64,000 nt of DNA from Desulfobacter postgatei 2ac9 (lineage in GTDB: Bacteria; Desulfobacterota; Desulfobacteria; Desulfobacterales; Desulfobacteraceae), in the NCBI RefSeq assembly GCF_000233695.2, contig NZ_CM001488.1:274049-338048 (forward strand). The letters run 5' to 3'. A program made the position numbers and the translations under genes. How positions within the stretch are numbered: the first letter of the stretch is position 1; every line of letters begins with the position of its first letter. Below are positions 5,907 to 23,911 of the stretch, one piece after another. The notes beneath the pieces were generated by a model. That model ran no database searches, was not told where the DNA came from, and saw only the letters and a list, made by a program, of their open reading frames with translations.

Positions 5907-5949
5907 GGGACAATGTTTCCGGTCAAAGTGCCGGACAAATTTTCTTAAT

Positions 5950-5994
5950 ATCGCTTTGAAGCCCCTGACATTCAGACAGGGTCTTCAAAGCGAT
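5950..5994. terminator. bidirectional hairpin between alaC and the ykgJ-like gene
   Basis: The 12-bp arms ATCGCTTTGAAG (5950-5961) and CTTCAAAGCGAT (5983-5994) are perfect, and an inner CCCCTG/CAGGG pairing extends the stem. It lies between converging genes and so can serve both. The T-run after the stem is weak on either strand. Confidence 0.65.
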
Positions 5995-6021
5995 TGTATC
6001 GGTTTTGTCACGTTTTCTTCC

Positions 6022-6822: not shown

Positions 6823-6894
6823 TAAATTTTTCCGTAATCAACAGGGCATATATTTTCATTGCTGAGTGTTATATGTTTTACCATATTCCAACAT

Positions 6895-7148
6895 TTATCA
6901 ACACACTCATATAAAATGTTCAAAAGTTCAAAACGGTATTGATAAAATGTCAATAAATAGAAAATCATGTTCAAAAGCTGATGAAAACTTGTGTTTATAA
7001 CATGTTCAAAACAAATAAAAGCCCTGGCAAACAACAATCTTGATGAAGTTCAAAACAAATGTATTGGTGTTGAAAACAGGTTAAAAAAATGTTGAAAATA
7101 CTGAAAAGGCATCAATCCGGGTTTCTTGAAAGCAAATCCGGATTGATG
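6895..7148 (+). repeat. 254-bp repeat element, intact copy, with phased A-tracts and terminal hairpin
   Basis: This noncoding block recurs at 43957-45943, where an IS splits it. Shared landmarks in the same order are TTATCAACAC (6895), several GTTCAAAA words, TTGTGTTTATAA followed by ATGT(T)AAAACAAATAAAA, a run of 11-bp units GTTGAAAANNN beginning at 7069, 7080 and 7091, and a closing hairpin (CATCAATCCGG 7110-7120 with CCGGATTGATG 7138-7148). The 11-bp spacing places A-tracts on one helix face, so intrinsic curvature is expected. No open frame is conserved between the copies. It lies between the starts of the ykgJ-like gene and the end of glnE. Confidence 0.75.
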
Positions 7149-7216
7149 TCAGGTTCAATAAATAAAAAGAATTTTATCGGTAATTTTTCAAAGATTGTTG
7201 ATGTGTGCGCAGTCCC

Positions 7217-10111
7217 TTAAATCATAAAGGCAGCATCATAAATTTGCGCTACTTTGGCAGCCTGCTCACTGAACAGGTACTCATCAACTGTGGCGGACCG
7301 CTCCTGAAGCGTGAGGCGGTGCATGGCCCTTCGCATGGCTACATAGGCATTCTGGAGAATGCTGCTCTTCTCACCGGATATCAGGCCATCCACACTCAAT
7401 GCCTGAAGCAGGCGGATATTGTCCGTCCATTCCACAACATCTGGATAGTCACAGGCGTGGCGCAGCACAAGATATTGAACAAGGAATTCAATATCCACAA
7501 TCCCCCCCCGGCTCTGCTTTAGATTAAATACTCCGGGTTCGTACTTTAACCGCTGAGCCCGCATTTTTTCACGCATCTGTCCAACTTCTTTTTTCAATGT
7601 TGCATCATCTCGCTTACGGGTCAGAATTTTTTTGCGTATGGTATCAAACCGTTTGAACAATGCCGGATCACCGGCCACGGGGCGGGCCCGGATCAGGGCC
7701 TGGTGTTCAAATGTCCAGGCCTGGTTCTCCAGGTAATCCTCATAGGTTTGGATATGGGTGATAATGGTGCCTGAATCCCCGCCGGGCCGAAGCCGCATAT
7801 CCGCACCGTAAAGGGTACCGGCCGAGGTATGCATGGTCAGGGCATGGATAATGCGCTGGCCTAAATTGGAATAAAAACGGATAATGTCTACCGACCGTTC
7901 GGTTCCGCTGGTAATCCCTGGTTCAGCATCAAAAATAAAAACCATATCCAGATCGGATTTATATCCCATTTCAAGCCCGCCTACCTTACCATAGGCAATG
8001 GCAATAAATCCGCATTCTTCAACACCTTTGCCTTCCATGCCCTTGGGATACCCATATTTTTCAGTTACAATCTGCCAGGATGACGCCACCACCTGGTTAA
8101 GAATGGTTTCAGCAATCCAGGTCAGGTGATCACTGACCTTCATCAGCGGGAAATTACCTGACACATCTGCCGCAGCCACCCTGAGCGTATTGATCTGGCG
8201 AAAAATATTGAGTGCTTCGAGCAGGTATTCCGGATCATCCTGAGGGACCCGGGCCATCAGGCTTTCCATTTCCCGTTCAAGCATATCCCGTTTGGGCGGA
8301 GAATACAGAGTTTCCGGATAAATAAGCTCATCTAAAAGAACGGGGTGTTGACTTAAAAACGAAATAATCCATGGGCTTTTACGGGCAAGAACGATCAGGG
8401 TATCAAGGGCACCTTTATTTTCAATGAGTAAAGACAGATAACACGTACGACGTTCAATGGTTGTCACCAGATCAATGAGTTTGGCCATTACCTCTTCTGC
8501 ATCCGGGTGTTCACCCACTTTTTTAATCAGTCGGGGCAAAAGCTGGGACAGTTTATTGCGCCCGGTCTGGGAAAGCTGGCGGGTGTGGGGATGGGCTGCC
8601 AAAGCTTTAAGAAGCCGAACCACAGATCCTGTATCCTGGTAACCGGAAATAGAGAGATCTTCACCCTGAAACTGGGGATCTGTGATACTGTCCCATATCT
8701 GTTTCAATTCCTGGCTGCTATTGTCTTTGTCTTCGTCATCGGCTTGCACCAGAAGCCTGGAAAAATGTTTATGCACAACACCCTGAATCCTTGACAGTTC
8801 AGCATAAAAGGCATCTTCGTCAACATATCCCATGGACAGGGCAAGGATCTGTCTTTGAACCGGATCGTCTGGAATATCGTGGGTCTGCCGGTCCTGGTAG
8901 GCCTGGAGCCTGTTTTCCACAAGCCGCAAGAAATGATAGGCCTGTTTGAGTTGATCACACACTTTTTGATCTATCAGCTTTTTTTCCACCAGGGTGTCCA
9001 AGACCGGCAATATGGGTCTGACCTGAAGTGCCGGTTCCACACCGCCTCTGATGAGTTGAAAAAGCTGACCGAAAAATTCAATTTCCCTGATACCGCCGGA
9101 CCCGATTTTTATATTGTGTTTCAGTCTGGCATTTTTCACCTGGAATGTTATGCGTTGTTTCATATCCCTGAAAGAATCAAAAGAGCCGTAATCCAGATAT
9201 CTGCGAAAAATAAAGGGTTTCAGGGTTTGAATAATTGTGTAGCCCGCTGCAATATCCCCTGCCACCGGACTTGCCTTGATCATGGCATAACGTTCCCATT
9301 CCCGGCCCTGGGACTGGTAATAATGTTCAAAAGCTTCCGCATCCATAACCAGGGGCCCGTTCTCCCCGAAGGGACGCAGACGGGTATCCACCCGGTAAAA
9401 ATGGATCCCGTTATCCATTGAAAACAGCTTGATAAATTCCCGGCACAGCTTTGTAAAAAATTCATCATTGGATATGGATCTCTCCCCATCAGTCTGCCCT
9501 GAATTGGGATATACGAAAATAAGATCAATATCTGAAGAAAAATTCAACTCGCCGGCCCCGAGCTTACCCATACCCAGCACCACAATGTTCTGGGTATGGC
9601 CGTCCTTATCTCTCGGCGTTCCCCATTTTTGGGTCAGCCCGGGATACAGTTGTTCAAAACCGCAACTGATACAGGCACAGGCAAGATCGGACAGATCGGC
9701 CATGGTTTCGGACAATGGTGCCGCACCTGTAAGATCCCGCCAGGCAATGCGAATGATTTCGTATACTTTGAATTCAAGCATCCGGGCTTTAAGCCCTGCA
9801 TTGTCCTGGCTATCACAGATAAAAGCGGCAAGCTTGTTTTTAAAAGCACCCGGATCATAGGATGTATCAATATCACCACTTTTACCAAGCCGACCAAGTA
9901 TCAAGGGGTTTGCTGTAATATGTTGAGCCGTAAAGGGACTGAACAGCATCATCCGGGTAAAATCTTGGGGTTTGACAGGCAACTGGCTGATATCCTGTAT
10001 ATCCCCGGCGGAAAAATAATCTTGAATCCGCCGCTGCAAGTCCTGGTAAAGGGTTTGGGGAAGCGCAGGAAAGACACCGGATATTAACTGTTCTATAGCT
10101 TCTTGACTCAT
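7217..10111 (-). CDS. glnE: glutamine synthetase adenylyltransferase/deadenylyltransferase
   Basis: GlnE of 964 residues switches glutamine synthetase off by adenylylation and on by phosphorolytic removal of AMP, in response to PII and glutamine. Both nucleotidyltransferase domains are present with their GxxD-x-D active sites: MGKLGAGELNFSSDIDLIFV in the N-terminal (deadenylylase) half and YGKVGGLEMGYKSDLDMVF in the C-terminal (adenylylase) half, each followed by its helical GlnD/PII-uridylyltransferase-like domain (GIREIEF and GGIVDIEFLVQ). The length is normal for the family. It appears monocistronic; the next gene upstream is 58 bp away on the same strand, so co-transcription is possible. 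No glnA or glnB lies in the window. Confidence 0.97.
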   Translation of the reverse strand: MSQEAIEQLISGVFPALPQTLYQDLQRRIQDYFSAGDIQDISQLPVKPQDFTRMMLFSPFTAQHITANPLILGRLGKSGDIDTSYDPGAFKNKLAAFICDSQDNAGLKARMLEFKVYEIIRIAWRDLTGAAPLSETMADLSDLACACISCGFEQLYPGLTQKWGTPRDKDGHTQNIVVLGMGKLGAGELNFSSDIDLIFVYPNSGQTDGERSISNDEFFTKLCREFIKLFSMDNGIHFYRVDTRLRPFGENGPLVMDAEAFEHYYQSQGREWERYAMIKASPVAGDIAAGYTIIQTLKPFIFRRYLDYGSFDSFRDMKQRITFQVKNARLKHNIKIGSGGIREIEFFGQLFQLIRGGVEPALQVRPILPVLDTLVEKKLIDQKVCDQLKQAYHFLRLVENRLQAYQDRQTHDIPDDPVQRQILALSMGYVDEDAFYAELSRIQGVVHKHFSRLLVQADDEDKDNSSQELKQIWDSITDPQFQGEDLSISGYQDTGSVVRLLKALAAHPHTRQLSQTGRNKLSQLLPRLIKKVGEHPDAEEVMAKLIDLVTTIERRTCYLSLLIENKGALDTLIVLARKSPWIISFLSQHPVLLDELIYPETLYSPPKRDMLEREMESLMARVPQDDPEYLLEALNIFRQINTLRVAAADVSGNFPLMKVSDHLTWIAETILNQVVASSWQIVTEKYGYPKGMEGKGVEECGFIAIAYGKVGGLEMGYKSDLDMVFIFDAEPGITSGTERSVDIIRFYSNLGQRIIHALTMHTSAGTLYGADMRLRPGGDSGTIITHIQTYEDYLENQAWTFEHQALIRARPVAGDPALFKRFDTIRKKILTRKRDDATLKKEVGQMREKMRAQRLKYEPGVFNLKQSRGGIVDIEFLVQYLVLRHACDYPDVVEWTDNIRLLQALSVDGLISGEKSSILQNAYVAMRRAMHRLTLQERSATVDEYLFSEQAAKVAQIYDAAFMI

Positions 10112-10169
10112 GGAATGGCTTTCATTTTATAATTCATGGACAAAAACCTCTTTACCGATAGTTTTGGCA

Positions 10170-11606
10170 TTATTCGCTTAGAGGAACCCATTTTTCCAGG
10201 GGCACGGGGATATTGCATATGAGAGAGGTTTCCAGTTTCCATTTGGTTTTTAGTACTTTACCCCCCATCATGACCGAGACCAGGGTATCGGATGAGACTA
10301 CGATTACAATAACATTTTCGTGTTCTGCCGTGAACCGCAAAGCGGAGTTGAACCTGGCTCCCCTGGCCCTGTTTTCACCGGGCACATTCCTGCCCTGCAA
10401 AAGACAGGCAAATCGATGCAGCTTTACATCAGCCCCGATGTGCAGTGCCCCGTCCACCTTGGACAGGGATTTGGCCAGATCATAATTATCCTGATTTTTC
10501 AGGTCCAGGGGGTGCAGCAGCGAATGGCCCATGATAAAAACCGGGGGATCATTGAGGTCAATCACAATACTGCATCCATATCGGTGGCCGGCAGCATTGT
10601 GAACAATCCCGGTCACTACTTTAAATAAAGCGGTGACTTTTTCAGCATCCATATCAGTGTCCATCAATGCCTCTTCCACCTGAACCAGCTTTTCCTTATG
10701 CGTGGTCGATTTAAAGCGCCCGTCGGAGAAAGAGCACACCAAATCATCATTGATTGCCAGAAAACCGTATCCGCCTCTAAAATCAACTGAGATGAAAAAA
10801 TCCGGATGATCTTCCCTGGTGATGCCGATAATTGTATTTTCAGTGGCAACCAGTTTCAAATCTGAATTTTCAACCGAGACAAGCAGCTTTCTGATATGCT
10901 TGACATTATCCAAACACGGTTGCTCCGCTTCGGGAAGCTCTAAAATAAAATTCATTTTAGGGATGGATGCTTTTTCCACAAAAATCAGCTTACCTCTTGG
11001 CCATTCTCTTTCTTCCGGCGTTCTTGAAATTTTAAGCACTGCCTCTAAAATCGGGTAAGCCCGCATTCTGGTATCCCAGCCGATCCGGATATTCATTTCA
11101 TCCACAATAAAATCTCTGACCGCATGGGTGGCGTATTCCTTGAGAAAAGAGCCGGAAATGCCTGTGTACAACTCTTCTTCATTGGCCAAGTCATGAGAAA
11201 ATCTGTAAACGGCATGTTCCAGCCACCGCTCGGTTGGACCTATGTTACACATGTCCGGATGGTGGTCGGTAAACCACATCTGATACACGATAGAGCTTGA
11301 TCTGCCGCCATAGGATATCAATCCGGCCAACCCAAGATTTTTTTCGGGAATCAAATTGCTGAATTTTTTTTTGTCATATTTGATGGAACATTTGGTTCGC
11401 CAATCATCTGAATCAATATACAATTCTTTGAATTTGGGTTCGTGCCCGGCCAAAAGGTTCTGGGGATCAAAGATATACATAGGATCATCGGGTCTGATGG
11501 CATAAATAACTGCCGCCCTGCTCGGCCCGGAAAAAAGCGTCAGTCCCTCTCTCAATCCCTCCAGGGTTTCCGTAATGCATCTGCGAATAAATCCATGGTT
11601 TGGCAA
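10170..11606 (-). CDS. DAC (DisA_N-like) domain protein, candidate diadenylate cyclase
   Basis: The 478-residue protein ends in a DAC domain (about 325-455), the fold that makes c-di-AMP from two ATP. The catalytic DGA motif is intact (VDGALHIGADVKLHRFACLL, DGA at 385-387), and the IVIVVSSDTLVSVMMGGK strand pair matches the end of the domain. The second signature, normally GxRHRAA, reads GARFNSALR (416-424), so the RHR motif is altered to RFN. Residues 1-320 are a soluble, unrecognised N-terminal region unlike the DisA DNA-binding tail or the CdaA membrane anchor. This resembles the varied DAC proteins of deltaproteobacteria and archaea. Activity may persist or be changed. Confidence 0.75.
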   Translation of the reverse strand: MPNHGFIRRCITETLEGLREGLTLFSGPSRAAVIYAIRPDDPMYIFDPQNLLAGHEPKFKELYIDSDDWRTKCSIKYDKKKFSNLIPEKNLGLAGLISYGGRSSSIVYQMWFTDHHPDMCNIGPTERWLEHAVYRFSHDLANEEELYTGISGSFLKEYATHAVRDFIVDEMNIRIGWDTRMRAYPILEAVLKISRTPEEREWPRGKLIFVEKASIPKMNFILELPEAEQPCLDNVKHIRKLLVSVENSDLKLVATENTIIGITREDHPDFFISVDFRGGYGFLAINDDLVCSFSDGRFKSTTHKEKLVQVEEALMDTDMDAEKVTALFKVVTGIVHNAAGHRYGCSIVIDLNDPPVFIMGHSLLHPLDLKNQDNYDLAKSLSKVDGALHIGADVKLHRFACLLQGRNVPGENRARGARFNSALRFTAEHENVIVIVVSSDTLVSVMMGGKVLKTKWKLETSLICNIPVPLEKWVPLSE

Positions 11607-11708
11607 TCAGGAAACCTCCCTTTCAAAGCTGTATTTATATTAATAGGTTGTTTACTAAAGAATATGATGTTTCTCAATATTTTCCCCCCGATTGCATAAA
11701 ATTTTTAT

Positions 11709-13334
11709 TTACAAAAGAAAATTCGTGGATAAAAAGCGGGATTTGCGCTCACGGGTAATGGTCGACATGATCTCCTTGTTGAGGTCGTTGAGTTTACCAG
11801 CCACCAGGGTACGGATGGAAAAAACCCGCAGGGCGTCGGACATGGACAGGGTGCCTTCGGCGGAATTCTTGCGCCCGGTAAAGGGGAAGGTATCGGGCCC
11901 TCGCTGGCACTGGCTATTGATGTTGACCCGGCAGACCTGGTTCACCAGGGGGTCGATGAGTTCGGCAATGGAGTCTGGATCGGTACCGAAGATGCTGATC
12001 TGCTGGCCGTAATCGGAATCGGTCACATATCCTAAAGGTTCTTCAATGGATTTATAGGGGACAACGGGAATCACCGGTCCGAACTGCTCTTCTTTAAAAA
12101 CGCGCATCTGCGGTGTCACCGGATAGAGTACGGCCGGAAAAATGAAGGTCTGGTTGATTAGGCCGCCGCTTTCATTGCGAATGACCGCGCCCGCCTGCTG
12201 CGCATCATTGATGAGTTCCTGCAGATAACCGGTCTTGTTCTCCTCGGGCAGGGGGGTGATCCCCACCCCGCTCTGCCAGGGCAGTCCCGGTTCAAGTTTT
12301 TCCACCTCCCGGCAGAGCATATCCAGGAACTTTTCAACAATGGATTCATGCACGAACAGTAGCTTCAGGGCGGTACAGCGCTGGCCGTTGAAAGACAGTG
12401 CGCCCAGGAGACACTCCCTGACCGCCACGTCGAGTTTCGCATCCGGCAAAACAATGGCCGGATTTTTGGCCTCCAGCCCCAGCACACAGCGCAGGCGGTG
12501 GGGCCGGGGATGCTGCTTCTTGAGGCTGTCGCCGACCCGGCTGGTGCCGATAAAGGCCAACACATCAATGCGGCCCGATTCCATGAGCGGAGTTACAACC
12601 CTGGCCCCACGGCCGTATACGGTATTGACAACCCCCGGCGGAAAGGCGCCCTGGAAGGCCTCAAGCAGGGGCCGGTGCAGCAGGACGCCGAGCTTGGGCG
12701 GTTTGAAGATGACGGTATTGCCCATGATCAGGGCCGGGATCAGGGTGGTAAAGGTTTCGTTCAAAGGATAGTTGAAAGGTCCCATGCACAGAACCACCCC
12801 CAGAGGCGCACGACGGATCTGGGCTGCCACCCCCTGGGTGATGTCAAAGCGCGACCCGGCCCGGTCCAGATCCTTTAACGCTTCGATGGTGCCCAGGATA
12901 TAATCCAGGGTGCGATCAAACTCGTTACAGGCATCCTGAAGGTTTTTGCCGATCTCCCACATGATAAGGCGAACGACCTCCCCGCGCTTTTCCTTCATGC
13001 GGTAGGCGAACTTTTCCATATGGCGAATGCGGTCCTCCACAGCCAGGGTCGGCCAGTGACCGCGACCGCTGTCATAGGCCCGGCCGGCCGCATCCAAAGC
13101 CTCCATCGCCTCCTTTTCCGTAAGCAGCGGATAGCTGCCGATACGCTTCTTTTCAACGCCGCTGTCCCCGGCCAGGCACACGGGCGAAAACACATCCTGC
13201 ACAGGACCGTCCCAGTGATGAATTTGCCCGTCAACCAGGAATTCCTTCTGTTCCACAGGCTCCGGAATCCGAAATTCTTCAGGGATATTTGATTCTGATG
13301 GAAACAGGCTCACAATCTTTTGTTGATTATTCAT
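11709..13334 (-). CDS. gapN: NADP-dependent glyceraldehyde-3-phosphate dehydrogenase (GapN type)
   Basis: The 541-residue aldehyde dehydrogenase would oxidise glyceraldehyde 3-phosphate irreversibly to 3-phosphoglycerate with NADP, bypassing phosphoglycerate kinase. The ALDH residues are intact: Asn188 in GPFNYPLN, Glu288 in LGLEAKNP and the nucleophile Cys320 in [11 protein letters not shown], which is the GapN-style motif. The N- and C-termini are longer than those of usual ALDHs, as in plant and bacterial GapN. Base composition is visibly GC-richer than in the neighbouring primase-helicase gene, which ends 6 bp upstream on the same strand. A broken second gapN lies at 16454-16723. The exact substrate is inferred from family resemblance. 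Confidence 0.85.
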   Translation of the reverse strand: MNNQQKIVSLFPSESNIPEEFRIPEPVEQKEFLVDGQIHHWDGPVQDVFSPVCLAGDSGVEKKRIGSYPLLTEKEAMEALDAAGRAYDSGRGHWPTLAVEDRIRHMEKFAYRMKEKRGEVVRLIMWEIGKNLQDACNEFDRTLDYILGTIEALKDLDRAGSRFDITQGVAAQIRRAPLGVVLCMGPFNYPLNETFTTLIPALIMGNTVIFKPPKLGVLLHRPLLEAFQGAFPPGVVNTVYGRGARVVTPLMESGRIDVLAFIGTSRVGDSLKKQHPRPHRLRCVLGLEAKNPAIVLPDAKLDVAVRECLLGALSFNGQRCTALKLLFVHESIVEKFLDMLCREVEKLEPGLPWQSGVGITPLPEENKTGYLQELINDAQQAGAVIRNESGGLINQTFIFPAVLYPVTPQMRVFKEEQFGPVIPVVPYKSIEEPLGYVTDSDYGQQISIFGTDPDSIAELIDPLVNQVCRVNINSQCQRGPDTFPFTGRKNSAEGTLSMSDALRVFSIRTLVAGKLNDLNKEIMSTITRERKSRFLSTNFLL

Positions 13335-13340
13335 AAGACC

Positions 13341-16310
13341 TCACTTTATTGCATTTTGTTTGTTGAAAAAATCTCTCATACCAATGCTGTCAGTTAATTC
13401 ACATGCAATACTGCTGCTTTCAAGACGCATGATGCTTTCTTCAGAGTAGCCAAAGCTTAAAAGGTTAATGCTCCCGTACCAGGTGATTTTGTTGTCAATG
13501 ATTGCAAATTTCTGGTGGATGTTGGATTTGTAAACCATTTGAACACCGCCGGTTTCTATGGTTGAAAAAAGATCGCTCAACATGGTTTTTCTATTTTCGT
13601 CATAATCATTGGCAGGCCTGGTTATGACTGTTATTTTAACCTGTTTTTTCAACAGGTCATTAAAGTGATCCATCATTTGGAACATTCTTTGTTTTGTGAC
13701 AAAGGGGCTGATGATCAGTACATACTTTGAGGCAACTGCAATATCTCTTAAATACACTGGAAAAAAATCGTCTTTATTAAAAATAAGGTTGGTCGGTGAA
13801 TCGGGAAACCTTGACGCTTTGGTTTTATAACCGATTGAAGCATACCCTTTCAGCCGCTTTCCGTACATTTTTTCAAGCATTTTTACATGAAGATCGATGT
13901 AATCGTAAACTCGAACTTCTTCTTTCCCTTTAAAATAGCGGTGCAGTCTGCCCGCATATTGATGCAATGTCCCTTTCCAGGCAATGGGCATGGCTAAGAA
14001 TAATGTATCCAGCCGCGCTTCATCAAAACCTTCACCAATATAGCTGCCGGTAGCAACCAGTACAAAGGGTTCTGTATCCTTAATTTCATTTATTTCACCT
14101 ATGACCCGGGCTGTTTTTTTATCCCCCATACCGCCCGTCAGGCTTATGACATTGGATAGTCTGTCTTTCAGATTTTCCACAAGCTTGGCCACATGACTCA
14201 CCCGCCCTGTCAAAATAAGTGACTTTCTGCCTTTTTCATAGCATTCCACGACATCGTCTATAATGAGTTGATTTCTGATTTCATCTGATACTAAATCCTT
14301 TGTTATTTCCTGAAGGGACAACCGTCCTTCGTCCTCGCCAGGTGGTATTCTAAAAGATGTGAATCTCGGAATTAAATAATGATCAAAGGGCCGCTTTTCT
14401 GCCTGCTTTTTTGCATCCACGGAAAAACGTACAGGCCCGCAATAAAAGAAAATAATCGGGTGGTGACCATCCGATCTGGCAGGGGTTGCCGTCAGACCGT
14501 AAATATATTTTGCTGTGGCCTGCTTCAATATTTGTTCAAAAGTAACTGCAGGAACATGATGGCACTCATCCACGAGGATCATTCCATAATTTTTTACGAC
14601 TTCTTTGACATCTCCTTTGGTATTCAATGATTGCATGACTGCTATATCGACGATGCCACTGAGTCTGTCTTTGCCTGCTGCCATGTGGCCGATGATATCC
14701 TGTTCTTTTTTACGCCCTCTTTTTTCAGGCGCTTCAGGCAGGGATTCATTGATGATAAGAAATTGTTCCAGCCGTTCCCGCCACTGGGAAAGCAGTTGCT
14801 GCCGGTGAACCAACACCAGGGTATTCACTTTTTTCATACCGATCAATTTTGCACCGATAACAGTCTTCCCGAATGCCGTGGCAGCCGATAAAACACCATT
14901 ATCATGTACCGACAATGCATCAACTGCAAGTTGCTGTTCTTCCCGTAGTTCACCATTGAATTCAACATTGATCACTTTTCCAGGATTGGATTTATCTTCG
15001 TGTATCAGTGTAACATTCTTTTCCCTGAGCAAAGATTTGACATCGCATTCGCAGCCGCAAGGCAATGCTATATGATCTTTATAATCATCTGAGCAGGAGA
15101 CGACCCGTGGTTTGCCGAAGGTTGACTTCCTCATGGCCTGGGCCTTATAAAATAGAGGATTTTTAAAGGCTGCATACCTTTTAAGGATATTTAATGCTTT
15201 CTGGCTTAATCCTCTTTTTTCAATGTACAGCATGCCGGATTTAACAATTTTAACCGTTTTGGGGAAATCATTGGATTTCAGGCCAATGGATTGCTGTTTT
15301 TGCCACGGTTTGGATTCTGATGTTTCTTCTTTCAGCACCCCCAGATCGTTTCCACGGGTCAGCTTGTTGATATACGATGTCAGATCTTTTTCGTTCAGCT
15401 TTTGAATGCCGGATAAAAACTGCCATTGGTCCGGGTATGGATTGAAATCTTCACTGATAAAAACCGCATTGCCGTTACCCCGGGCTTTTTTCTGGAGCGG
15501 CAGAGCGATCAGGTTGCCAAAACCGCCATCCGGCATGGTATCTTGATTGGGAAACAGCCTGTCATAGGATTTGAACGAAATTTGATGGCGTTCACCCATG
15601 GCGTATGTCAAGAGTGATGTCCCGAATTTTCGGGCAAAGGCTGCAGGAATTTTTTGTTCGAAGAAAAACCAGGCATGGCAGCCATTGCCGGATTGAGACC
15701 GCTCTATTGCAACCGGTATGTCAAATTTTGAACAAATGTTCCGGATAACCGCAATGTCTTGTATCCATCCTTCTTTGTCAAAATCAATAGCTATAAAATG
15801 GCAGGTTTCATCAAGATTCATGGGATACACCCCGATGACGAATTCCCCTCTGAGATGCTTTTCAACAACGGATTCGTTTAGCGTCCCATACGATTGATTG
15901 CCACATGCTGAACATTTTATTTTGCGTTTATTGCAGATCCCGGGGACCCATTCATTCAGGCAGACCGGGCTGTATCCTGTAGCGCCTTTTTTACTTTGCC
16001 ATTTTTTTGCATACACATCGCTCCTGCCTCGAAACAAGGACATGAAAAGATCAATCTTTTCATTATTTTGAGAATATCGGGTAACTAAACCGCCATATGT
16101 TCCTCCAGGCACTGCTGCATCGGATTTTGGATTTGATGCAGGTTTCTCAAAGTGGTTGAATGCAGTTACTCCGGATTGGACAGGTTTATGATGAGAAATA
16201 ATATTTTCAGATTTGGAAACAAATTCCCGGATTTTTGCTTTCAGAGCTTTGTTCTCTTCAAGCAGGGCATTATATTTTCTTTTTAATTCATCGTAATCGT
16301 TAATAGTCAT
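13341..16310 (-). CDS. primase-SF2 helicase-PLD fusion, TOTE conflict-system-like
   Basis: The 989-residue protein joins four parts. Residues 4-33 are a coiled coil. An archaeo-eukaryotic-primase-like domain follows (about 80-320) with Cys117/126/133/136, the acidic IDFD pair (Asp176, Asp178) and SQSGNGCHAW (Ser207, His212). An SF2 helicase (about 450-810) has AFGKT (481-483), DECHH (581-585), LTATPARSDG and YAGRLHR. A phospholipase-D-like domain ends the chain with IHQKFAIID (His932, Lys934, Asp939) and YGSIN. This order matches proteins annotated as TOTE conflict-system primases, thought to act in defence or mobile-element biology. The start overlaps the stop of an upstream truncated frame (ATGA). 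It is AT-richer than its neighbours and probably acquired. Confidence 0.85.
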   Translation of the reverse strand: MTINDYDELKRKYNALLEENKALKAKIREFVSKSENIISHHKPVQSGVTAFNHFEKPASNPKSDAAVPGGTYGGLVTRYSQNNEKIDLFMSLFRGRSDVYAKKWQSKKGATGYSPVCLNEWVPGICNKRKIKCSACGNQSYGTLNESVVEKHLRGEFVIGVYPMNLDETCHFIAIDFDKEGWIQDIAVIRNICSKFDIPVAIERSQSGNGCHAWFFFEQKIPAAFARKFGTSLLTYAMGERHQISFKSYDRLFPNQDTMPDGGFGNLIALPLQKKARGNGNAVFISEDFNPYPDQWQFLSGIQKLNEKDLTSYINKLTRGNDLGVLKEETSESKPWQKQQSIGLKSNDFPKTVKIVKSGMLYIEKRGLSQKALNILKRYAAFKNPLFYKAQAMRKSTFGKPRVVSCSDDYKDHIALPCGCECDVKSLLREKNVTLIHEDKSNPGKVINVEFNGELREEQQLAVDALSVHDNGVLSAATAFGKTVIGAKLIGMKKVNTLVLVHRQQLLSQWRERLEQFLIINESLPEAPEKRGRKKEQDIIGHMAAGKDRLSGIVDIAVMQSLNTKGDVKEVVKNYGMILVDECHHVPAVTFEQILKQATAKYIYGLTATPARSDGHHPIIFFYCGPVRFSVDAKKQAEKRPFDHYLIPRFTSFRIPPGEDEGRLSLQEITKDLVSDEIRNQLIIDDVVECYEKGRKSLILTGRVSHVAKLVENLKDRLSNVISLTGGMGDKKTARVIGEINEIKDTEPFVLVATGSYIGEGFDEARLDTLFLAMPIAWKGTLHQYAGRLHRYFKGKEEVRVYDYIDLHVKMLEKMYGKRLKGYASIGYKTKASRFPDSPTNLIFNKDDFFPVYLRDIAVASKYVLIISPFVTKQRMFQMMDHFNDLLKKQVKITVITRPANDYDENRKTMLSDLFSTIETGGVQMVYKSNIHQKFAIIDNKITWYGSINLLSFGYSEESIMRLESSSIACELTDSIGMRDFFNKQNAIK

Positions 16311-16462
16311 ATGGCATCTGATTCATCGTATTCTTCATAAAACCGGATCGCTTCCTTCGTATTCAGGGGTGTTTGAGTTGTAATAATGCGGTCCAAAATC
16401 GGTTTAGAAAGATCGGTTATCTTTGCCGAAGGCACAGGCTTGCCAAGATCAAACAATTTGTA
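16307..16462 (-). pseudogene. C-terminal remnant of an unknown gene coupled to the primase-helicase gene
   Basis: A 51-residue open tail (beginning [17 protein letters not shown] and ending FYEEYDESDAI) ends in a TGA that overlaps the primase-helicase ATG as ATGA. That coupling suggests the two were once consecutive genes of an operon. No start codon or RBS is present; upstream the sequence abruptly becomes gapN-like at about 16465. The family is not recognised. It is the likely lost partner of the primase-helicase protein, or part of its former host operon. Confidence 0.5.
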
Positions 16463-16723
16463 TCGATCTGCTGGCCGTATTCCGAATCCGTCACATACCC
16501 TAAGGGTTCTTCAATGGATTTATAGCGGGAATCACAGGGACGTACAGCGCTGACCGTTGAATGAGAGGGCTCCCAGAAGGCACTCCTTAACCGCCACATC
16601 AAGTTTTGCATCCGACAGAATAGCGGAAAGGCGCTCTGGAAGGCCTCAAGCAGGGGCCGGTGCAGCAGGACGCCGAGCTTGGGCGGTTTGAAGATGACGG
16701 TATTTCCCATGATCAGGGCCTTT
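16454..16723 (-). pseudogene. gapN: decayed second gapN, three joined blocks
   Basis: Three blocks match parts of the intact gapN in the same order: about 16465-16530 (gapN 12000-12055), 16535-16620 (gapN 12370-12465) and 16621-16723 (gapN 12637-12738). Large internal stretches between them are missing and the frame is broken. The last block is almost identical to the intact gene, with only a few differences over about 100 bp, whereas the other two are clearly more diverged. The piece is therefore a mosaic, best explained by deletion plus gene conversion or recombination between two gapN copies flanking the primase-helicase gene. Confidence 0.85.
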
Positions 16724-16879
16724 AAATAACTGGAGTTCAGGCCATAAAAACCGGCTATATTTATTTTGTATAAACCCCGGGACTTGAAAAATAAAGCTTT
16801 TTCATGATATTTAAACAGGTTCTAAATAGATTGTGGAACGCTTTTACCATAAAAATTTAAGGGACAGGTATTAATCCAT
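16724..16879. other. leader region of the carAB-purF operon
   Basis: This is a 156-bp AT-rich stretch between the gapN remnant and carA. GGGACAGG at 16861-16868 lies about 12 bp before the carA ATG and may be its ribosome-binding site. I see no convincing promoter hexamers or riboswitch fold. Confidence 0.4.
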
Positions 16880-18022
16880 ATGAAAGCATTGTTAGCCCTG
16901 GAAGATGGAAGAACATTTTCCTGCACAAGTTTTACAGGGCCGGGGGAAGCCCAGGGAGAGGTGGTGTTCAACACCAGCATGACCGGGTACCAGGAAATTT
17001 TGACCGACCCGTCCTATTACGGGCAGATGGTCACCATGACCTATCCGCTCATAGGCAATTACGGCGTGTGTCCGGAAGATGTTGAATCAGACCGTATTCA
17101 TGTGGCAGCCTTCATTGTCAAAGAATACCAACCGTTTCCAAGCAATTTCAGATCAAAGGGAACTCTTGCCGACTATCTGATAAAATCCCATATCCTGGGC
17201 ATTGAGGACCTTGATACAAGAGCGCTTACCCGGCATATACGAAAATCGGGTGCCATGCGCGCCATGATCTCCACCACGGATCTGGACCCTGAATCCCTTG
17301 TGGCCCGGGCAAGATTAATCCCTTCCATGGAAGGATCAGATCTGGTTGGATATGTCACAACCCGAAAACCCTATTTCTGGAAAGACAACTCTCCCGATTA
17401 TGTGGATGCCAAAAGCCTTGAAGACCCCTCTATATGGCGCCACAAAGGCACAAAACATTCTGTTGTGGCCCTGGATTTCGGCATTAAATACAATATCATC
17501 CGCTGTCTTGAAAACGCAGGATGTGAGGTGCTGGTGGTTCCGGCAAAAACCGATGCCCAGACCATAAAATACCTGAACCCGGACGGTATTTTCCTGTCCA
17601 ACGGCCCCGGCGACCCTGAACCTTTGACCTATATCGTGGAAACCATACGCGAACTTCTCGAACATTTTCCCGTCTTTGGTATATGCCTTGGCATGCAGCT
17701 TTTAGGTCTTGCCATGGGCGGTAAAACCATGAAGATTAAATTCGGCCACAGGGGCGGCAATCAGCCGGTGAAGAATATAGATACCGGAAAAGTCGAGATT
17801 ACCTCCCAGAACCACGGATTTGCAGTGGATCTCAATACCCTTGACAAAAACAAGTGCCGGCTGACCCACATCAACCTGAACGAATACTCCCTGGAAGGGC
17901 TCAAAAATGATACCATCCGGGCGTTTGCCGTCCAGTATCACCCCGAAGCCTCCCCGGGCCCCCATGATGCGGCCTATCTTTTTAACCAGTTTGCAAAAGT
18001 GATGGAAAATGCCAAAGCGTAA
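16880..18022 (+). CDS. carA: carbamoyl-phosphate synthase small subunit
   Basis: CarA (380 residues) is the glutaminase subunit that passes ammonia to CarB for carbamoyl phosphate, the precursor of pyrimidines and arginine. The N-terminal CPSase small-chain domain opens with [11 protein letters not shown] and includes [10 protein letters not shown]. The C-terminal class I glutaminase carries the nucleophile cysteine in [13 protein letters not shown] and the His-Glu pair in [12 protein letters not shown]. Length is typical. It overlaps carB by 14 bp, so the two are translated together in an apparent carA-carB-purF-radical SAM operon. Confidence 0.98.
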
Positions 18023-21000
18023 CGACATCCACAAAATTCTGATCATTGGTGCCGGCCCGATCATCATCAGCCAGGCCTGCGAGTTTGACTATTCCGGCAC
18101 CCAGGCCTGCAAGGCCTTAAAGGAAGAAGGATTTGAAGTTGTCCTGATCAACTCCAATCCGGCCACCATCATGACCGACCCTGAAACAGCCGACCGGGTC
18201 TATATTGAGCCGGTGACGGCTGAAACCCTGTGCAAGGTCATTGAGATTGAACGTCCCGATGCGGTGCTGCCCACCCTTGGGGGTCAGACTGCCCTGAACA
18301 CCACCATTGATGCAGCCAAAACAGGGATATTTGAACGCTATAATATTGAGCTGATCGGTGCCTCCATTGACGCCATCAACAAGGCCGAAGACCGCGAACT
18401 GTTCCGGGATGCCATGAATAAAATCGGTTTGAGAATTCCAAAATCCGGGTTTGCCGTCAATATGACTGAAGTGGAAGAGGTGGCCCAGCAGATCGGATTT
18501 CCCATTATTGTCCGGCCAAGCTTTACCCTGGGCGGAACCGGCGGCGGTGTGGCCTACAACATGGAAGAGCTTGCAAATCTTGCCAAGTCCGGCCTTGACG
18601 CCTCCCTGATCACCCAGGTGATGCTTGAGGAGTCTGTTCTGGGGTGGAAGGAGTTCGAGCTGGAGGTAATGCGGGACCACGCGGACAACGTGGTGATCAT
18701 CTGCTCCATTGAGAATATTGACGCCATGGGGGTTCACACCGGCGATTCCATTACCGTGGCCCCGGCCCAGACCCTGTCCGACAAAGAATACCAGGCCCTG
18801 CGGGATGCCTCCATTGCCATCATCAGGGAGATCGGCGTAGACACGGGCGGCTCCAATGTTCAATTTGCCGTGAACCCGGATAACGGGGATATTATCGTGG
18901 TTGAAATGAACCCCAGGGTATCCAGGTCTTCCGCTCTTGCCTCCAAGGCCACGGGCTTTCCCATTGCCAAAATTGCAGCCAAGCTTGCCGTAGGGTATAC
19001 CCTAGATGAGATTCCCAATGATATCACCGGCGAAACCATGGCCTGCTTTGAGCCGTCCATTGACTATTGTGTGGTCAAAATTCCGCGCTGGACCTTTGAA
19101 AAATTTCCCGAAACAGACGACATACTGACCACTGCCATGAAATCCGTGGGCGAAACCATGTCCATCGGCAGAACATTTAAAGAGGCACTTCAAAAAGGTC
19201 TGCGCTCCCTTGAAATCGGCCGGGCCGGTTTTGGTGCCGACGGAAAAGACCCTGCTCCCGGATCTGTGGCGGGTATGGATCTGGAATACAAATTATCCAC
19301 CCCTAATTCCCAGCGGATTTTTTACATCAAATACGCCATTGAACACGGCATGCCCATCACCATGATCCATGATCTCACCGATATTGATCCATGGTTTCTG
19401 TACCAGATGAAGCAGATTGTCGACCTTGAAAAGCAGTTGAAACTGGCCGGTATGAACCTGCCAAAGGATCTTTTTGAAAAGGCAAAAAAATACGGGTTCT
19501 CCGACACGCAGCTGGCCTATCTGTCCGGGGGGCTGACAGACAAGCAGATCGAACAGAAACGAAAAGATTTAGGCATTGTTCCGGTATATAAACTTGTGGA
19601 CACCTGTGCTGCGGAATTCAGGGCCGTTACCCCTTACTACTACTCCACCTATGAAAGCGAATGCGAAGCCCGGGTGTCGGACAAGAAAAAGGTGATCATC
19701 CTGGGCGGCGGTCCCAACCGTATCGGCCAGGGTATTGAGTTTGATTACTGCTGTGTTCATGCCTCCTTTGCCTTAAGGGAAGAAGGGGTTGAATCCATCA
19801 TGGTCAATTCCAACCCGGAAACGGTCTCCACGGACTATGACACCTCGGACAAGCTCTACTTTGAACCGTTGACCCGGGAAGATGTGCTTCACATCGTGGA
19901 AAAGGAAAAACCCTTTGGGGTGATTGTCCAGTTCGGGGGCCAGACACCGTTGAACCTTGCCACGGACCTTCAAAAAGCAGGGGTTCCCATCATCGGCACA
20001 AGTCCGGAAAGCATAGACCGCGCCGAAGATAGGGATCTTTTTGCGGCCATGCTTAAAAAACTGGGCCTTCGCCAGCCGGATAACGGCATTGCATATTCCT
20101 ACCAAGAAGCCGTGAAAGTGGCCAGGGATATCGGATACCCGGTCATGGTTCGCCCCTCCTTTGTGCTGGGCGGCCGGGCCATGAAAATCGTCTATGATGA
20201 AAAGGATCTGGAATCCTATTTTGAACTGGCGGTCCAGGCATCCCCGGACAAGCCCGTACTCATTGACAAGTTTCTGGAAGAAGCCTTTGAGCTGGATGTG
20301 GACGCCATTTCCGACGGTGAAGACACCATTATCGGCGGCATGATGGAACATATTGAAGAGGCAGGTATCCATTCCGGAGATTCCGCCTGTGTGCTGCCGC
20401 CCTATTCCATTGAAGCGCACCACATCAAAGAGATGTCTGATGCGGCAAAAGCCATTGCCAAAGAACTTAATGTCAAGGGTCTGATGAACATCCAGTTCGG
20501 GATTATGAATGACACGGTGTACATCATTGAAGTCAATCCCAGGGCATCCCGGACCATCCCCTTTGTCTCCAAGGCGATCGGTGTGCCTCTGGCCAAACTG
20601 GCCACCAAGGTGATGCTGGGAAAAACCTTAAAAGAACTTGGGGTGACCACCGAAGTTATCCCGCCCTATTATTGTGTCAAAGAAGCAGTAATGCCCTTTG
20701 ACCGCTTTGAAAACGTCGATCCTGTTCTTGGGCCGGAGATGAAATCCACAGGCGAAGTCATGGGCATTGATAAAGATCTTGGCGCAGCTGTGGCCAAAGC
20801 TCAGTTTGCTGCCGGACAGAAACTGCCCAAGGAAGGCACTGTATTTATCTCCGTCCAGGACAAGGATAAAAAGGCGGCACTGCCTGTGGCAAAATGTTTC
20901 CATGACATGGGATTCACCATCATGGCCACCCGGGGAACCGTCACATTCCTGGAAGAAAACAAAATTCCATCCACATTTGTAAAAAAAGTATCCGCAGGCC

Positions 21001-21239
21001 GACCCCATGTGGTGGATGCCGTGAAAAACGGTGAAATCCAGCTTATATTAAATACAGGCGCCTCCAGCCAGACCCAAAGAGACGGCTATGAAATTCGCAG
21101 GGCCGCCATTAAATATAAAATACCTTATGCCACCACCACGGACGGGGCCCGGGCCATCAGCCTGGCCATCCAGGCCATGAAAAAAGAGAACCTGACGGTT
21201 AAGCCACTCCAGTATTATCACCAGGAAATTAAGCATTGA
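18009..21239 (+). CDS. carB: carbamoyl-phosphate synthase large subunit
   Basis: CarB (1,076 residues) uses two ATP, bicarbonate and ammonia to form carbamoyl phosphate. Both homologous ATP-grasp halves are complete: the first has [20 protein letters not shown] and [12 protein letters not shown], the second [19 protein letters not shown] and [18 protein letters not shown]-terminal MGS-like allosteric domain follows from about residue 940, the usual site of UMP/ornithine control. Length is typical. The stop overlaps a possible TTG start of purF, and the gene overlaps carA by 14 bp. Confidence 0.98.
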
Positions 21240-21250
21240 AAGAACCAGAA

Positions 21251-22705
21251 ATGAATACGACCCACCCAAATTGTTCGACCTGCCCCGTTTTTACGCCCAG
21301 TGAACGTCCCAAAGATGAATGTGGGGTTTTTGGCCTTTACAAACACCCGGAAGCGGCCCAAATTACCTACTTCGGGCTTTATGCGCTTCAACACAGGGGC
21401 CAGGAAAGTGCGGGCATCTCCGTGAACCGGGGGATTAATGATAAAATTTTCTCCCATAAAGGCATGGGACTTGTACCGGAAATTTTCAACATGGACGACC
21501 TTAAACGCATTGAAGGCGGGTCTGCCATCGGCCATGTCCGGTACTCCACGACGGGAGATTCCGTTCTGGCCAATGCCCAGCCTTTTGTGGTGAACCATCG
21601 GCACCGCTCCTATGCCCTGGCTCACAATGGTAATCTGGTCAACGCCCACATCATCCGCGAAGAACTTGAGGAACAGGGCTCCATCTTCCAGACCACCATG
21701 GATTCGGAAGTGTTTCTGCACCTGTTTATTAAAAACCTTATAAAGGGCGATTATGAATCAGCCATATTAAAGGCCGTCTCAAAGCTTGAAGGCGCCTATT
21801 CCATGATTCTTCTGACCTGTAAGGGCGAAATTATCGGCATGAAAGACCCCAACGGATTCCGCCCCCTGGCCCTTGGAAAACTCAACGGGCACTATGTACT
21901 GGCATCTGAAACCTGTGCCTTTGACCTGATCCAGGCTGAATTCATCCGGGAACTGGCCCCCGGTGAAATCGTTATTATCAGTGAAGACGGCATCAAGAGT
22001 ATCAAACATCCCAATGCAGCTGCCAAAAAATCCTTGTGCATATTTGAATATATCTATTTTGCCCGGCCTGACTCCACCATTGACGGCAAAAACGTCTATG
22101 AAATGAGAAAGGCACATGGAAGGCGTCTGGCCCAGGAATCCCATGTGGATGCAGACCTGGTCATGCCGTTCCCCGATTCCGGCAACTATGCGGCCATCGG
22201 CTATGCCGCAGAATCTGGAATCCCCTTTGAAATGGCTATGATACGCAACCACTATGTGGGCAGAAGTTTTATCCAGCCCACCCAGTCCATGCGGGATTTT
22301 GCGGTGCGGGTGAAACTGAACCCGGTACGGGAACTGATAAAAGGTAAAGATATTATCATTGTTGAAGATTCCATTATCCGGGGCACCACGGCCAAAACCC
22401 GTGTGAAAGCACTAAAGGAGTTGGGAGCCGGAAAAATACACATGCGGGTATCTTGTCCGCCTCATAAGTTCCCCTGTTACTACGGCATTGATTTTTCATC
22501 CAAGGGAGAGTTGATTGCGGCTCAGAAACCCTTGGATGAACTGACCGAATACCTTGGATTGGATTCCCTGCATTACCTGTCCATTGAAGGCATGCTCGAA
22601 GCCTCCGGAGTCAATGACCCTGAAGCCAATTTCTGCAAGGCCTGCTTTGACGGTACATACCCTGTGCCCTTTGATCCCAATTTTACCAAACAGTGCATGG
22701 GATAA
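21251..22705 (+). CDS. purF: amidophosphoribosyltransferase
   Basis: PurF commits PRPP to purine synthesis by replacing pyrophosphate with glutamine-derived ammonia. The N-terminal nucleophile cysteine sits in KDECGVFGLYKH after a short propeptide with two extra cysteines (CSTCPVF), so self-cleavage is expected. Glutaminase motifs ALQHRGQESAG and HNGNLVNA and the PRPP-binding loop IIVEDSIIRGTT are intact. I took the ATG at 21251; a TTG at 21236 overlapping the carB stop is possible and would add 5 residues. Several cysteines near the C-terminus (CFDGTYPVP region) fit the Fe-S-containing PurF type. It is linked to carAB, joining pyrimidine and purine pathways. Confidence 0.96.
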   Translation: MNTTHPNCSTCPVFTPSERPKDECGVFGLYKHPEAAQITYFGLYALQHRGQESAGISVNRGINDKIFSHKGMGLVPEIFNMDDLKRIEGGSAIGHVRYSTTGDSVLANAQPFVVNHRHRSYALAHNGNLVNAHIIREELEEQGSIFQTTMDSEVFLHLFIKNLIKGDYESAILKAVSKLEGAYSMILLTCKGEIIGMKDPNGFRPLALGKLNGHYVLASETCAFDLIQAEFIRELAPGEIVIISEDGIKSIKHPNAAAKKSLCIFEYIYFARPDSTIDGKNVYEMRKAHGRRLAQESHVDADLVMPFPDSGNYAAIGYAAESGIPFEMAMIRNHYVGRSFIQPTQSMRDFAVRVKLNPVRELIKGKDIIIVEDSIIRGTTAKTRVKALKELGAGKIHMRVSCPPHKFPCYYGIDFSSKGELIAAQKPLDELTEYLGLDSLHYLSIEGMLEASGVNDPEANFCKACFDGTYPVPFDPNFTKQCMG

Positions 22706-22706
22706 A

Positions 22707-23702
22707 ATGAAAAAACAAACCGTTGCATTTTCAAGGCAGAGCACCAATCTGTTTTTCCACATACTGACACGATGCAATCTGCGTTGTGCCCACTGCTATA
22801 TCAACCGAGACCAGCACGGAAGCAACACCCTTTCCCTGGATACGATCAAGGCGTGGCTTGGTATCTTTTCTTCCAAAGCAAAGGATACCAACCTGATTTT
22901 TTTAGGGGGTGAACCCACGCTTCACCCCGATCTTGCTTCAGCCATAGGCATAGCCGAATCCATGGGATTCAAATCCATCACCATTGATACCAACGGTTTT
23001 TTATTTCACAACATCCTGGACAAGATCACACCCAATCAGATTGACTTTTTTTCATTTTCCCTGGATGGTGTCAGCAAGAGAATCAATGATGCCATCAGAG
23101 GAGAGGGATGCTTTGATGCCGTCATGTCCGGTATCAGCCGTGCTGTGGAAAAAGGTTTTTCCTGCTCAATGATCTATACGGTCTCTGAAAAAAACATTCA
23201 TGAGGTCCCAAAGCTTCCTGAATTGGTAAAGGATCTCGGTATTTCACGATTTTTTATCCAGGTGGTGGGTATGCGGGGCGAAACGGAAAACACGGATGCA
23301 AGGCACCAGGTATCAAAATCAATCTGGCAGAAAACCATTCCAAAAACGGCGGAACAGATTGCAGAACAGGGAATTATCGTTACCTACCCCAAGGTGTTCC
23401 TTACCCATGAAGAAACCTTTGAATGTGCTGCCAATGTGGCGGACAACTATTTTATCTTCCCCAACGGACGGGTGTATCAATGTCCTTTATGTGAGGATTT
23501 TCCCTTTCATTCCTATGAAATAATAAACAATCAACTTATGCCTCGTCCAAAAATCAATGAAAAGGATCTTTTCTCTTTGCAGATTCCCGAAGGTTGTGTA
23601 ATGAACAAATTAATACAGCCGGGAAATCTCTCCTACGATGATAATGAATTCCCCCGCTATAAAATCGCCTGTTGTATGCTCAAGGAGGAATTATACCCTT
23701 AA
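22707..23702 (+). CDS. radical SAM protein with C-terminal cysteine cluster
   Basis: The 331-residue enzyme begins 1 bp after the purF stop, so it belongs to that operon. It binds a [4Fe-4S] cluster through CNLRCAHC near residue 24-31 and S-adenosylmethionine through FLGGEPTLHPD and later TIDTNG and FSLDG motifs. The C-terminal third holds further cysteines (FECAANV, YQCPLCEDF, EGCVMN and CCML), arranged like a SPASM or twitch auxiliary cluster domain. The substrate is not identifiable: related proteins modify peptides or make cofactors, and no precursor peptide gene is evident nearby. The start at 22707 (MKKQTVAF) is preferred over upstream codons lying inside purF. Confidence 0.85.
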   Translation: MKKQTVAFSRQSTNLFFHILTRCNLRCAHCYINRDQHGSNTLSLDTIKAWLGIFSSKAKDTNLIFLGGEPTLHPDLASAIGIAESMGFKSITIDTNGFLFHNILDKITPNQIDFFSFSLDGVSKRINDAIRGEGCFDAVMSGISRAVEKGFSCSMIYTVSEKNIHEVPKLPELVKDLGISRFFIQVVGMRGETENTDARHQVSKSIWQKTIPKTAEQIAEQGIIVTYPKVFLTHEETFECAANVADNYFIFPNGRVYQCPLCEDFPFHSYEIINNQLMPRPKINEKDLFSLQIPEGCVMNKLIQPGNLSYDDNEFPRYKIACCMLKEELYP

Positions 23703-23741
23703 GACAGAACGTTCAAAATGAAATTCCAGCCGATTCATCAA

Positions 23742-23767
23742 TTACCAAACAAAAGTTTGTTTGGTAA
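23742..23767. repeat. perfect palindrome TTACCAAACAAA / TTTGTTTGGTAA
   Basis: The 26-bp inverted repeat with 12-bp arms and a 2-bp centre lies 40 bp after the radical SAM stop. It could be a hairpin in the transcript or an operator. There is no T-run directly after it. Confidence 0.6.
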
Positions 23768-23805
23768 CACTACAGCGACACTTGAACGTCTAATTCTTCA
23801 GCGAG

Positions 23806-23835
23806 AGCCATTTTTCTTTTTCTATGGCTTTTTTA
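23806..23835 (+). terminator. Rho-independent terminator after the car-pur operon
   Basis: Arms AGCCAT (23806-23811) and ATGGCT (23824-23829) are followed by TTTTTT. The position, just downstream of the last gene of the plus-strand operon, fits termination. Confidence 0.65.
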
Positions 23836-23836
23836 T

Positions 23837-23911
23837 ATGAAAGTTATGAGTAGTGAGTAGTGAGATTTAAAACAAGCTGTTTTCTCAATACTCAATACTC
23901 ACATCTTTCAT
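23837..23911. repeat. 75-bp inverted repeat with internal GAGTAGT repeats
   Basis: The left arm starts ATGAAAG and continues with repeated TGAGTAGTGAGTAGTGAGA; the right arm ends CTTTCAT after TCTCAATACTCAATACTCAC. The arms pair nearly throughout (about 29 bp). It lies between the converging car-pur operon and the serpin gene, 29 bp from the serpin stop, and may act as its terminator or be a dispersed palindrome. Confidence 0.65.

Follow-up and report, generated by a model that had tools for sequence, protein, structure and literature searches.

CRISPR-associated prim-pols (CAPPs) include a type in which the prim-pol is joined to a helicase. The available parts of PMC8211822, where the CAPP_A types are defined, place the non-CRISPR relatives of these proteins typically or mostly in mobile elements, with a helicase as the commonest partner, and an excerpt of PMC5862659 counts a Bradyrhizobium bll5242-like family among the prim-pols. 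A prim-pol of Thermus was reported to be a barrier to environmental DNA and to be dispensable for the replication of its element (PMC7693054, accessible portion); a later study found AddAB mutations in every Thermus ppol mutant and, in the sections at hand, stresses genome stability (PMC9751324). Archaeo-eukaryotic primases (AEPs) also give their name to the Pfam domain AEP-TOTE, in which TOTE stands for TPR, OB, TBP and Effector (excerpt of PMC12458937, which cites Aravind, Iyer and Burroughs 2022). PLD nucleases paired with SF2 translocases are known from restriction: as the available part of PMC7913695 describes them, SauUSI carries PLD, SF2 and target-recognition domains in one chain, and CglI/NgoAVII have PLD and SF2 in separate subunits. 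The whole word "primase" is absent from the main text of a BREX survey (PMC12839542), and a literature search thin on subscription journals returned nothing on an AEP–SF2–PLD protein itself.

Here, we describe such a protein from a stretch of 64,000 nucleotides of Desulfobacter postgatei 2ac9 (the window), which lies in a single-contig genome of 3.97 Mb. Judged from its sequence and those of its relatives, it is a good, although not startling, candidate for a defence enzyme of a known family.

Results

Domain architecture and conserved residues

The gene opens with ATG and encodes a protein in which a zinc-type AEP, an XPB/UvsW-like SF2 motor and a single PLD half-site (HxKx4D) are fused (Table 1). 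The first-pass annotation of this DNA had proposed a primase–helicase–PLD fusion in one polypeptide with intact catalytic residues, and both proposals are borne out by Pfam domains, motifs and alignment. AEP-TOTE (PF22548) matches residues 84 to 312 with 338.6 bits (cut-off 27; E = 2.3e-101), a match that covers the model nearly end to end (positions 1–229 of 230). It is followed by ResIII at residues 454 to 612 (E = 4e-22), by a Helicase_C match at residues 688 to 792 that stays under its cut-off (20.8 versus 23.5 bits) and by PLDc_2 at residues 854 to 973 (E = 2.6e-12). The AlphaFold model of the protein has a mean pLDDT of 82.7 and a pTM of 0.72.

The three residues singled out earlier, Asp176, Lys482 and His932, are correctly placed. 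The AEP follows the DxD plus SGxGxH pattern (D176 in IDFD; SGNGCH, 207–212), with D176, D178, S207, H212 and D250 as its key residues and a conserved C-C-C-H set (C126, C133, C136 and H152) as candidate zinc ligands. SF2 motifs comprise K482 (TAFGKT), DECHH (581–585) and QYAGRLHR (784–791), and the PLD half-site is formed by H932, K934 and D939 (HQKFAIID, 932–939). No substitution occurs across 24 aligned rows (alignment A1, made up of the window protein and 23 homologues) at the AEP acids and histidine, at the candidate zinc ligands, at the Walker A lysine, in DECH or at the motif VI arginines.

Table 1. Features of the AEP–SF2–PLD gene and its surroundings, in window coordinates
Feature	Coordinates	Strand	Evidence
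AEP–SF2–PLD gene, 989 aa	13341..16310	-	ORF, Pfam, alignment A1, AlphaFold model
Residues 1–83: helix 4–34 (possible coiled coil) and low-confidence linker	16062..16310	-	AlphaFold model; relaxed selection, dN/dS 0.44
AEP domain, residues 84–312	15375..16061	-	Pfam, alignment A1, structure and sequence matches
Pre-motor segment, residues 321–450; partly covered by the XPBII match, from residue 407	14961..15350	-	PDB match, AlphaFold model
XPB/UvsW-like SF2 motor, residues 451–832	13815..14960	-	Pfam, PDB sequence and fold matches
PLD domain with one HxKx4D half-site, residues 850–979	13374..13763	-	Pfam, alignment A1, motif
Intact aldehyde dehydrogenase (ALDH), starting 6 nt after the AEP–SF2–PLD gene; adjacency by rearrangement	11709..13334	-	
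Decayed ALDH remnant upstream of the AEP–SF2–PLD gene, matching two ALDH stretches	16465..16720	-	
Rearrangement junction: similarity to other gene copies stops at 13373–13377; similarity to the ALDH leader starts at 13360–13364	13341..13377	-	
DACND-DACNH-DAC gene, with glnE the conserved flank of the variable locus	10170..11606	-	
Variable locus as filled here, between conserved DAC-glnE and carA flanks	11680..16741	.	

Relationships of the AEP and the motor

By sequence and fold, the AEP is closest to CAPPs, namely the Marinitoga CAPP domain (7nqd, 7nqf and 7p9j; TM 0.77–0.78 by target length; E = 1.4e-11 for the isolated domain as query), and motifs I and II fall in register. Since an SF2 domain follows this Marinitoga-related AEP, the protein has the order of a CAPP-like prim-pol plus helicase, and the PADLOC PrimPol model labelled "CAS associated" matches it with 293.8 bits. 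These likenesses, together with the CRISPR-linked prim-pol–helicase type described in the accessible text of PMC8211822, would suit an accessory of CRISPR adaptation, the role proposed for CAPP proteins, but we regard that role as highly improbable for this gene. The window holds no array-like repeat, the scanned neighbours of the gene include no Cas protein, and we rejected a CRISPR link on these grounds; moreover, a different AEP of this genome adjoins Cas1. In that second locus (L194, at ~2.73 Mb), Cas1 (PF01867, 299 bits), a 400-aa AEP and a TPR protein adjoin, the AEP matching the PADLOC "adaptation polymerase" with 293 bits and the TPR protein matching the PADLOC TPR model with 668 bits. 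This module resembles a split version of the CAPP-TPR type, and one cell therefore maintains two AEP types, each in its own setting.

The Pfam name AEP-TOTE is no proof that a TOTE system is present, and the likening of the gene to TOTE conflict-system primases fails at this locus, which has the domain name in common with such systems and lacks their partners. A Pfam scan of the window neighbours detected no TPR, OB or TBP gene beside the AEP–SF2–PLD gene. TBP (PF00352), a family whose divergent bacterial members could escape the model, matched none of the 37 carrier genomes tested and none of 395 genomes from the phylum; in a control, it matched in 4 of 14 genomes, all four presumably archaeal. 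Cold-shock genes occur in 36 of the 37 carriers. The window genome has six cold-shock matches, one of them inside the window (62103–62291) and the nearest of the five listed lying ~28 kb from the gene, outside the window (contig 259484–259675); in one other genome (G197), a match is found ~12 kb from the gene copy. The AEP-TOTE model is also broader than TOTE systems, as it accepts the Cas1-adjacent AEP of the same genome (139.8 bits). An effector of a true TOTE conflict system is thus scarcely credible here even with an AEP that scores so far above the cut-off, and we do not file the gene as TOTE; the missing partners weaken the TOTE claim, not a conflict role.

For the motor, the nearest solved structures are XPBII, T4 UvsW and RadD (archaeal XPBII: E = 5.5e-17; TM up to 0.66 by target length). 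A weaker match is 7clg, a 953-aa "putative helicase" that we take to be the PLD-SF2 restriction enzyme SauUSI (E = 6e-7 for the single sequence and 1e-12 using the alignment). A PDB search with the PLD piece gave no significant match, and this domain is assigned from Pfam and its motif.

A variable locus in Desulfobacter

The genome contains one full copy of the gene and one weak AEP match (27%), which is the AEP of L194. The closest named loci belong to Desulfobacter latus, D. postgatei and D. vibrioformis (87–92% identity over the matched parts). An earlier argument from AT-richness loses its force, because the GC content of the gene (42.0%) is within the common range of the window (mean 45.8%, SD 3.3, over 123 stretches of 2970 nt, 12% of which are equally low); the apparent contrast arises from the adjoining GC-rich ALDH gene (56.8%).

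The neighbours in the window (ALDH, DAC, glnE, carA and carB) are metabolic or sensory, and an Rfam search over positions 5000 to 25000 returned nothing at the gathering threshold. ALDH was rejected as a functional partner: the boundary between the two genes is a rearrangement junction, where the last few codons of the AEP–SF2–PLD ORF look like an ALDH leader, as measured against the copies in two other genomes (G013 and G015). A partnership with DAC is likewise unsupported, as DAC in Desulfobacter stays with glnE or carA with the gene present or absent.

In the ten genomes with both flanks at most 25 kb apart on one contig, the gap from carA to DAC-glnE measures 0.5, 2.5, 2.5, 5.3 (window genome), 9.1, 10.5, 12.0, 16.7, 16.8 and 21.7 kb; in G013, 141 kb separate the flanks. 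Similarity to the window ends at ~16742–16776 on the carA side in all six gaps that were read, and at ~11622–11679 on the DAC side in five of them. The gene occupies 4 of the 10 gaps (G000, G005, G015 and G016), lies beside DAC on contigs without carA in G002 and G006 and is found elsewhere in G009 and G017. The gaps otherwise have mixed contents, with AbiEii by Pfam in G009 and, as judged by eye, glutamate synthase, dehydrogenases, a chemoreceptor and transposases; most of what fills the locus in other genomes looks metabolic or is a transposase. We read the locus as generally variable rather than as a pure defence island. Beside the D. latus gene (L003/L046) are matches to BrxA, PglZ and BrxC/PglY as well as a HEC-01A-like AAA protein and a PglXI-like piece of 177 aa. 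Among 18 other Desulfobacter genomes, some of them incomplete, five have a full ORF, three a split, contig-cut or interrupted one, three a remnant and seven no gene; in G005, a DDE transposase element has inserted into the gene and is accompanied by a target duplication of 9 bp.

Phylogeny and selection

A 63-row tree, built by a quick method without bootstrap and with some long branches (L133 the longest), divides into two sides (SH-aLRT 99). On one are 33 rows without PLD; the 30 rows of the other comprise 27 with PLD and three cut short by contig ends (L021 and L138) or a stop (L062). This split points to one gain or loss of PLD, probably. HxKx4D is intact in 24 of the 27 PLD rows and gone in three rows from viral contigs (L122, L123 and L133).

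Mean dN/dS (NG86; 10 pairs of five Desulfobacter copies) is 0.12 for the AEP, 0.16 for the segment after it, 0.09 for SF2 and 0.14 for PLD, compared with 0.44 for the N-terminal 83 residues. The flanking genes, in slightly different genome sets, give 0.14 (DAC, 10 pairs) and 0.15 (glnE, 6 pairs from four genomes). All three enzyme domains are under purifying selection and seem to be functionally maintained, changing about as fast as the flanking genes do, and the values carry no arms-race signature.

This housekeeping-like pace would also be expected of an accessory genome-maintenance enzyme, a single-chain excision or fork-repair machine whose motor would remodel stalled forks or lesions, whose PLD would trim them and whose AEP would prime anew or fill in gaps. 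Such an enzyme is the main rival to a defence role, and we consider it possible, at somewhat better than one chance in four. The motor's closest solved relatives are repair helicases, XPBII among them with its nuclease partner Bax1, and the Thermus prim-pol, at first called a DNA barrier, was later linked to genome stability in the available text of PMC9751324. Speaking against it are the absence or decay of the gene in about half of the genus, its occurrence in only 28 of 246 other genomes of the phylum and the placement of homologues among defence and toxin–antitoxin genes.

Distribution and genomic neighbourhood of homologues

The search behind the 28 of 246 genomes used the AEP plus the segment after it (E ≤ 1e-25). 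In plasmid records, where the homologues bear no other name than "DEAD/DEAH box helicase", 274 match, 13 of them over at least 80% of the protein. The five that were read are all typed as conjugative; near the homologue they have tyrosine recombinases, a set of TniQ, TniB and transposase, or genes for plasmid partition and transfer. No record in the phage collection reaches 80% of the protein, and the matches listed there (40 of 1228) are all to the motor part. A single-protein query found no viral homologues; with alignment A1, the viral search returned 13 IMG/VR contigs, some of which look by eye like integrative elements rather than phages.

Neighbours were compared with controls by taking up to two ORFs per side of homologue loci (36 of 38 loci; L138 and L152 had no usable ORF) and ORFs from the middle of arbitrary stretches, mostly of the same genomes (35 of 40 stretches had enough ORFs, and 122 of 134 ORFs, from 32 stretches, were scanned to match total length). 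The 13 viral contigs, the five plasmids and most other Desulfobacter copies at the same locus (e.g., L046–L048) had been excluded beforehand, and the ORFs were called mechanically, so that some in both sets are spurious. At E ≤ 1e-10, 246 PADLOC models matched the 133 homologue-side ORFs versus 34 for the 122 control ORFs, a trend rather than a gene count, because redundant models inflate both figures and fewer proteins than models are involved. Recurrent models beside homologues were AbiEi (three proteins), PDC-S01 (up to four), DpdE and ZorD (two each); no model matched more than one control protein. Among the Pfam families listed (25 of 178 and 25 of 229), the homologue side has DUF4143/AAA_14, HATPase_c_4/AlbA_2, Fic, AbiEi, ResIII, SNF2, serine recombinase and a few metabolic families, and the control side has ferredoxins, response regulators and sigma factors. 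Individual loci include a PLD-less homologue that overlaps McrC by 4 nt behind an McrB-like AAA gene (L131), an AlbA_2/HATPase gene 25 nt upstream (L122), a macro-domain gene upstream (L139) and a serine recombinase directly upstream (L014).

Homologues are patchy and sometimes decayed, and AbiE, Fic, AlbA/Schlafen, BREX, McrBC or recombinase genes adjoin them more often than they adjoin controls. Association with defence islands or mobile elements, the lack of which the first-pass annotation had named as a point against its defence reading when it proposed this survey, is present in the PADLOC and Pfam comparisons and on plasmids. The conjugative plasmids, their recombinase, Tni, partition and transfer genes and the recombinase of L014 are also what a helper of the replication, transfer or maintenance of a mobile element would leave behind if stranded in the chromosome. 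We think such an origin of the gene's function unlikely, as no mobile-element module accompanies the gene in Desulfobacter, where it is under purifying selection; the plasmid copies read have no PLD; and the Thermus element replicates without its prim-pol (accessible portion of PMC7693054).

Discussion

We favor, with a probability of about 0.5, an accessory single-polypeptide anti-invader enzyme, restriction-like in action, that would load on exposed foreign single-stranded DNA, translocate and cut. In the mechanism that we envisage, the N-terminal helix would bring the protein into at least a dimer and so pair two PLD half-sites into one active center; the CAPP-like AEP would engage DNA with exposed single strands or forks, such as foreign DNA that is entering the cell, being conjugated or replicating fast, and perhaps prime on the engaged strand; the XPB/UvsW-like motor would translocate and open the duplex; and the paired PLD center would cut. 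This defence reading draws on the domains, the conserved and intact active sites, purifying selection, the single PLD clade, the patchy and decaying distribution and the neighbourhood of defence, toxin–antitoxin and mobile genes. Counted against it are the metabolic or sensory neighbours in the window itself, the mostly metabolic-looking genes and transposases that fill the same locus in other genomes (by eye), dN/dS values like those of DAC and glnE and the loss of HxKx4D from 3 of the 27 PLD rows.

A bolder version, which we hold to be a long shot, is a one-protein immunity that tells foreign DNA apart through its exposed single strands or forks, with sequence and base modification playing no part in recognition and with copying or priming by the AEP making the track for the motor and PLD. 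If so, this would be a restriction enzyme with a polymerase as its reader. Should the protein prove protective, it would provide a function for a widespread AEP–helicase group (those 28 phylum genomes and many plasmids) and an example of a prim-pol that serves as a weapon independently of CRISPR.

Set beside known systems, the protein has its AEP domain in common with Pfam AEP-TOTE, at a locus without TPR, OB and TBP partners. The repair helicases XPB-Bax1, T4 UvsW and RadD are the nearest solved structures of its motor and have no fused AEP or PLD; Bax1 is a separate nuclease of a different kind. With SauUSI and CglI/NgoAVII, as covered by the available part of PMC7913695, the protein shares a PLD nuclease and an SF2 translocase, combined in one chain as in SauUSI. 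It differs from them in that PLD is at the opposite end of the chain, the SF2 motor belongs to a different branch and an AEP takes the place of the target-recognition domain; no SRA, B3 or similar domain gave a Pfam match at E ≤ 0.001. ICETh2 of Thermus thermophilus offers a mobile-element prim-pol with a helicase partner (Ppol/Hel), tested as a barrier to DNA uptake; its Hel is a separate protein, likened to the helicase domain of DnaG, and the comparison is by description (PMC7693054 and PMC9751324, in part). The CAPP_A prim-pol-plus-helicase type and its non-CRISPR relatives, as far as the accessible text of PMC8211822 describes them, share the AEP sequence and fold and the order of AEP then helicase, a likeness drawn from the Marinitoga structures and the described architecture; the window protein differs from the CAPP_A helicase type in its extra PLD and in having no adjoining Cas genes. 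As a whole, the protein resembles the published non-CRISPR prim-pol-plus-helicase architecture, with the PLD tail marking one clade.

A variable locus between carA and DAC-glnE

The gap between carA and DAC, compared between the window and the corresponding locus of nine further genomes (loci L217-L222 among them), ranges from 0.5 to 21.7 kb across the genus, and its gene content differs between Desulfobacter genomes. In the window, the AEP-SF2-PLD gene is flanked on both sides by aldehyde dehydrogenase (ALDH) sequence, an intact gene on one side and a decayed remnant of that gene on the other. An intact ALDH occupies the carA end of the locus in Desulfobacter genome G015. Elsewhere in the window, DUF4214 repeats are fused to a bacterial serpin.

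Positions of features in the window and in extracted loci
Sequence	Positions	Feature
Window	11680-16741	carA-DAC gap
Window	11709-13334	Intact ALDH
Window	16465-16720	ALDH remnant
Window	23941-25863	DUF4214-serpin fusion
L050 (genome G005)	8874-10752	DDE transposase element interrupting the AEP-SF2-PLD gene
L014 (Petroclostridium)	8759-12954	Two recombinase-like ORFs and split gene copy
L131	3967-10232	McrB-like AAA, McrC and AEP-SF2 genes
L194 (own genome, ~2.73 Mb)	8699-12483	TPR protein, AEP, Cas1

Altered homologues and possible associated systems

The G005 copy is broken by a DDE transposase element with similar, inverted ends and a 9-bp target duplication. The Petroclostridium copy is split into two ORFs and lies directly downstream of a pair of short recombinase-like ORFs, of which the second begins like a serine recombinase. 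The PLD domain of viral-contig homologues (L122, L123, and L133) has lost the HxKx4D motif.

At L131, the AEP-SF2 gene, which lacks PLD, shares a 4-nt overlap with McrC; this locus may represent a McrBC system with an AEP-helicase partner. The second AEP of the window's own genome (400 aa) adjoins a TPR protein and Cas1, a set that is probably a CRISPR adaptation module of the split CAPP-TPR type (CAPP, CRISPR-associated prim-pol).
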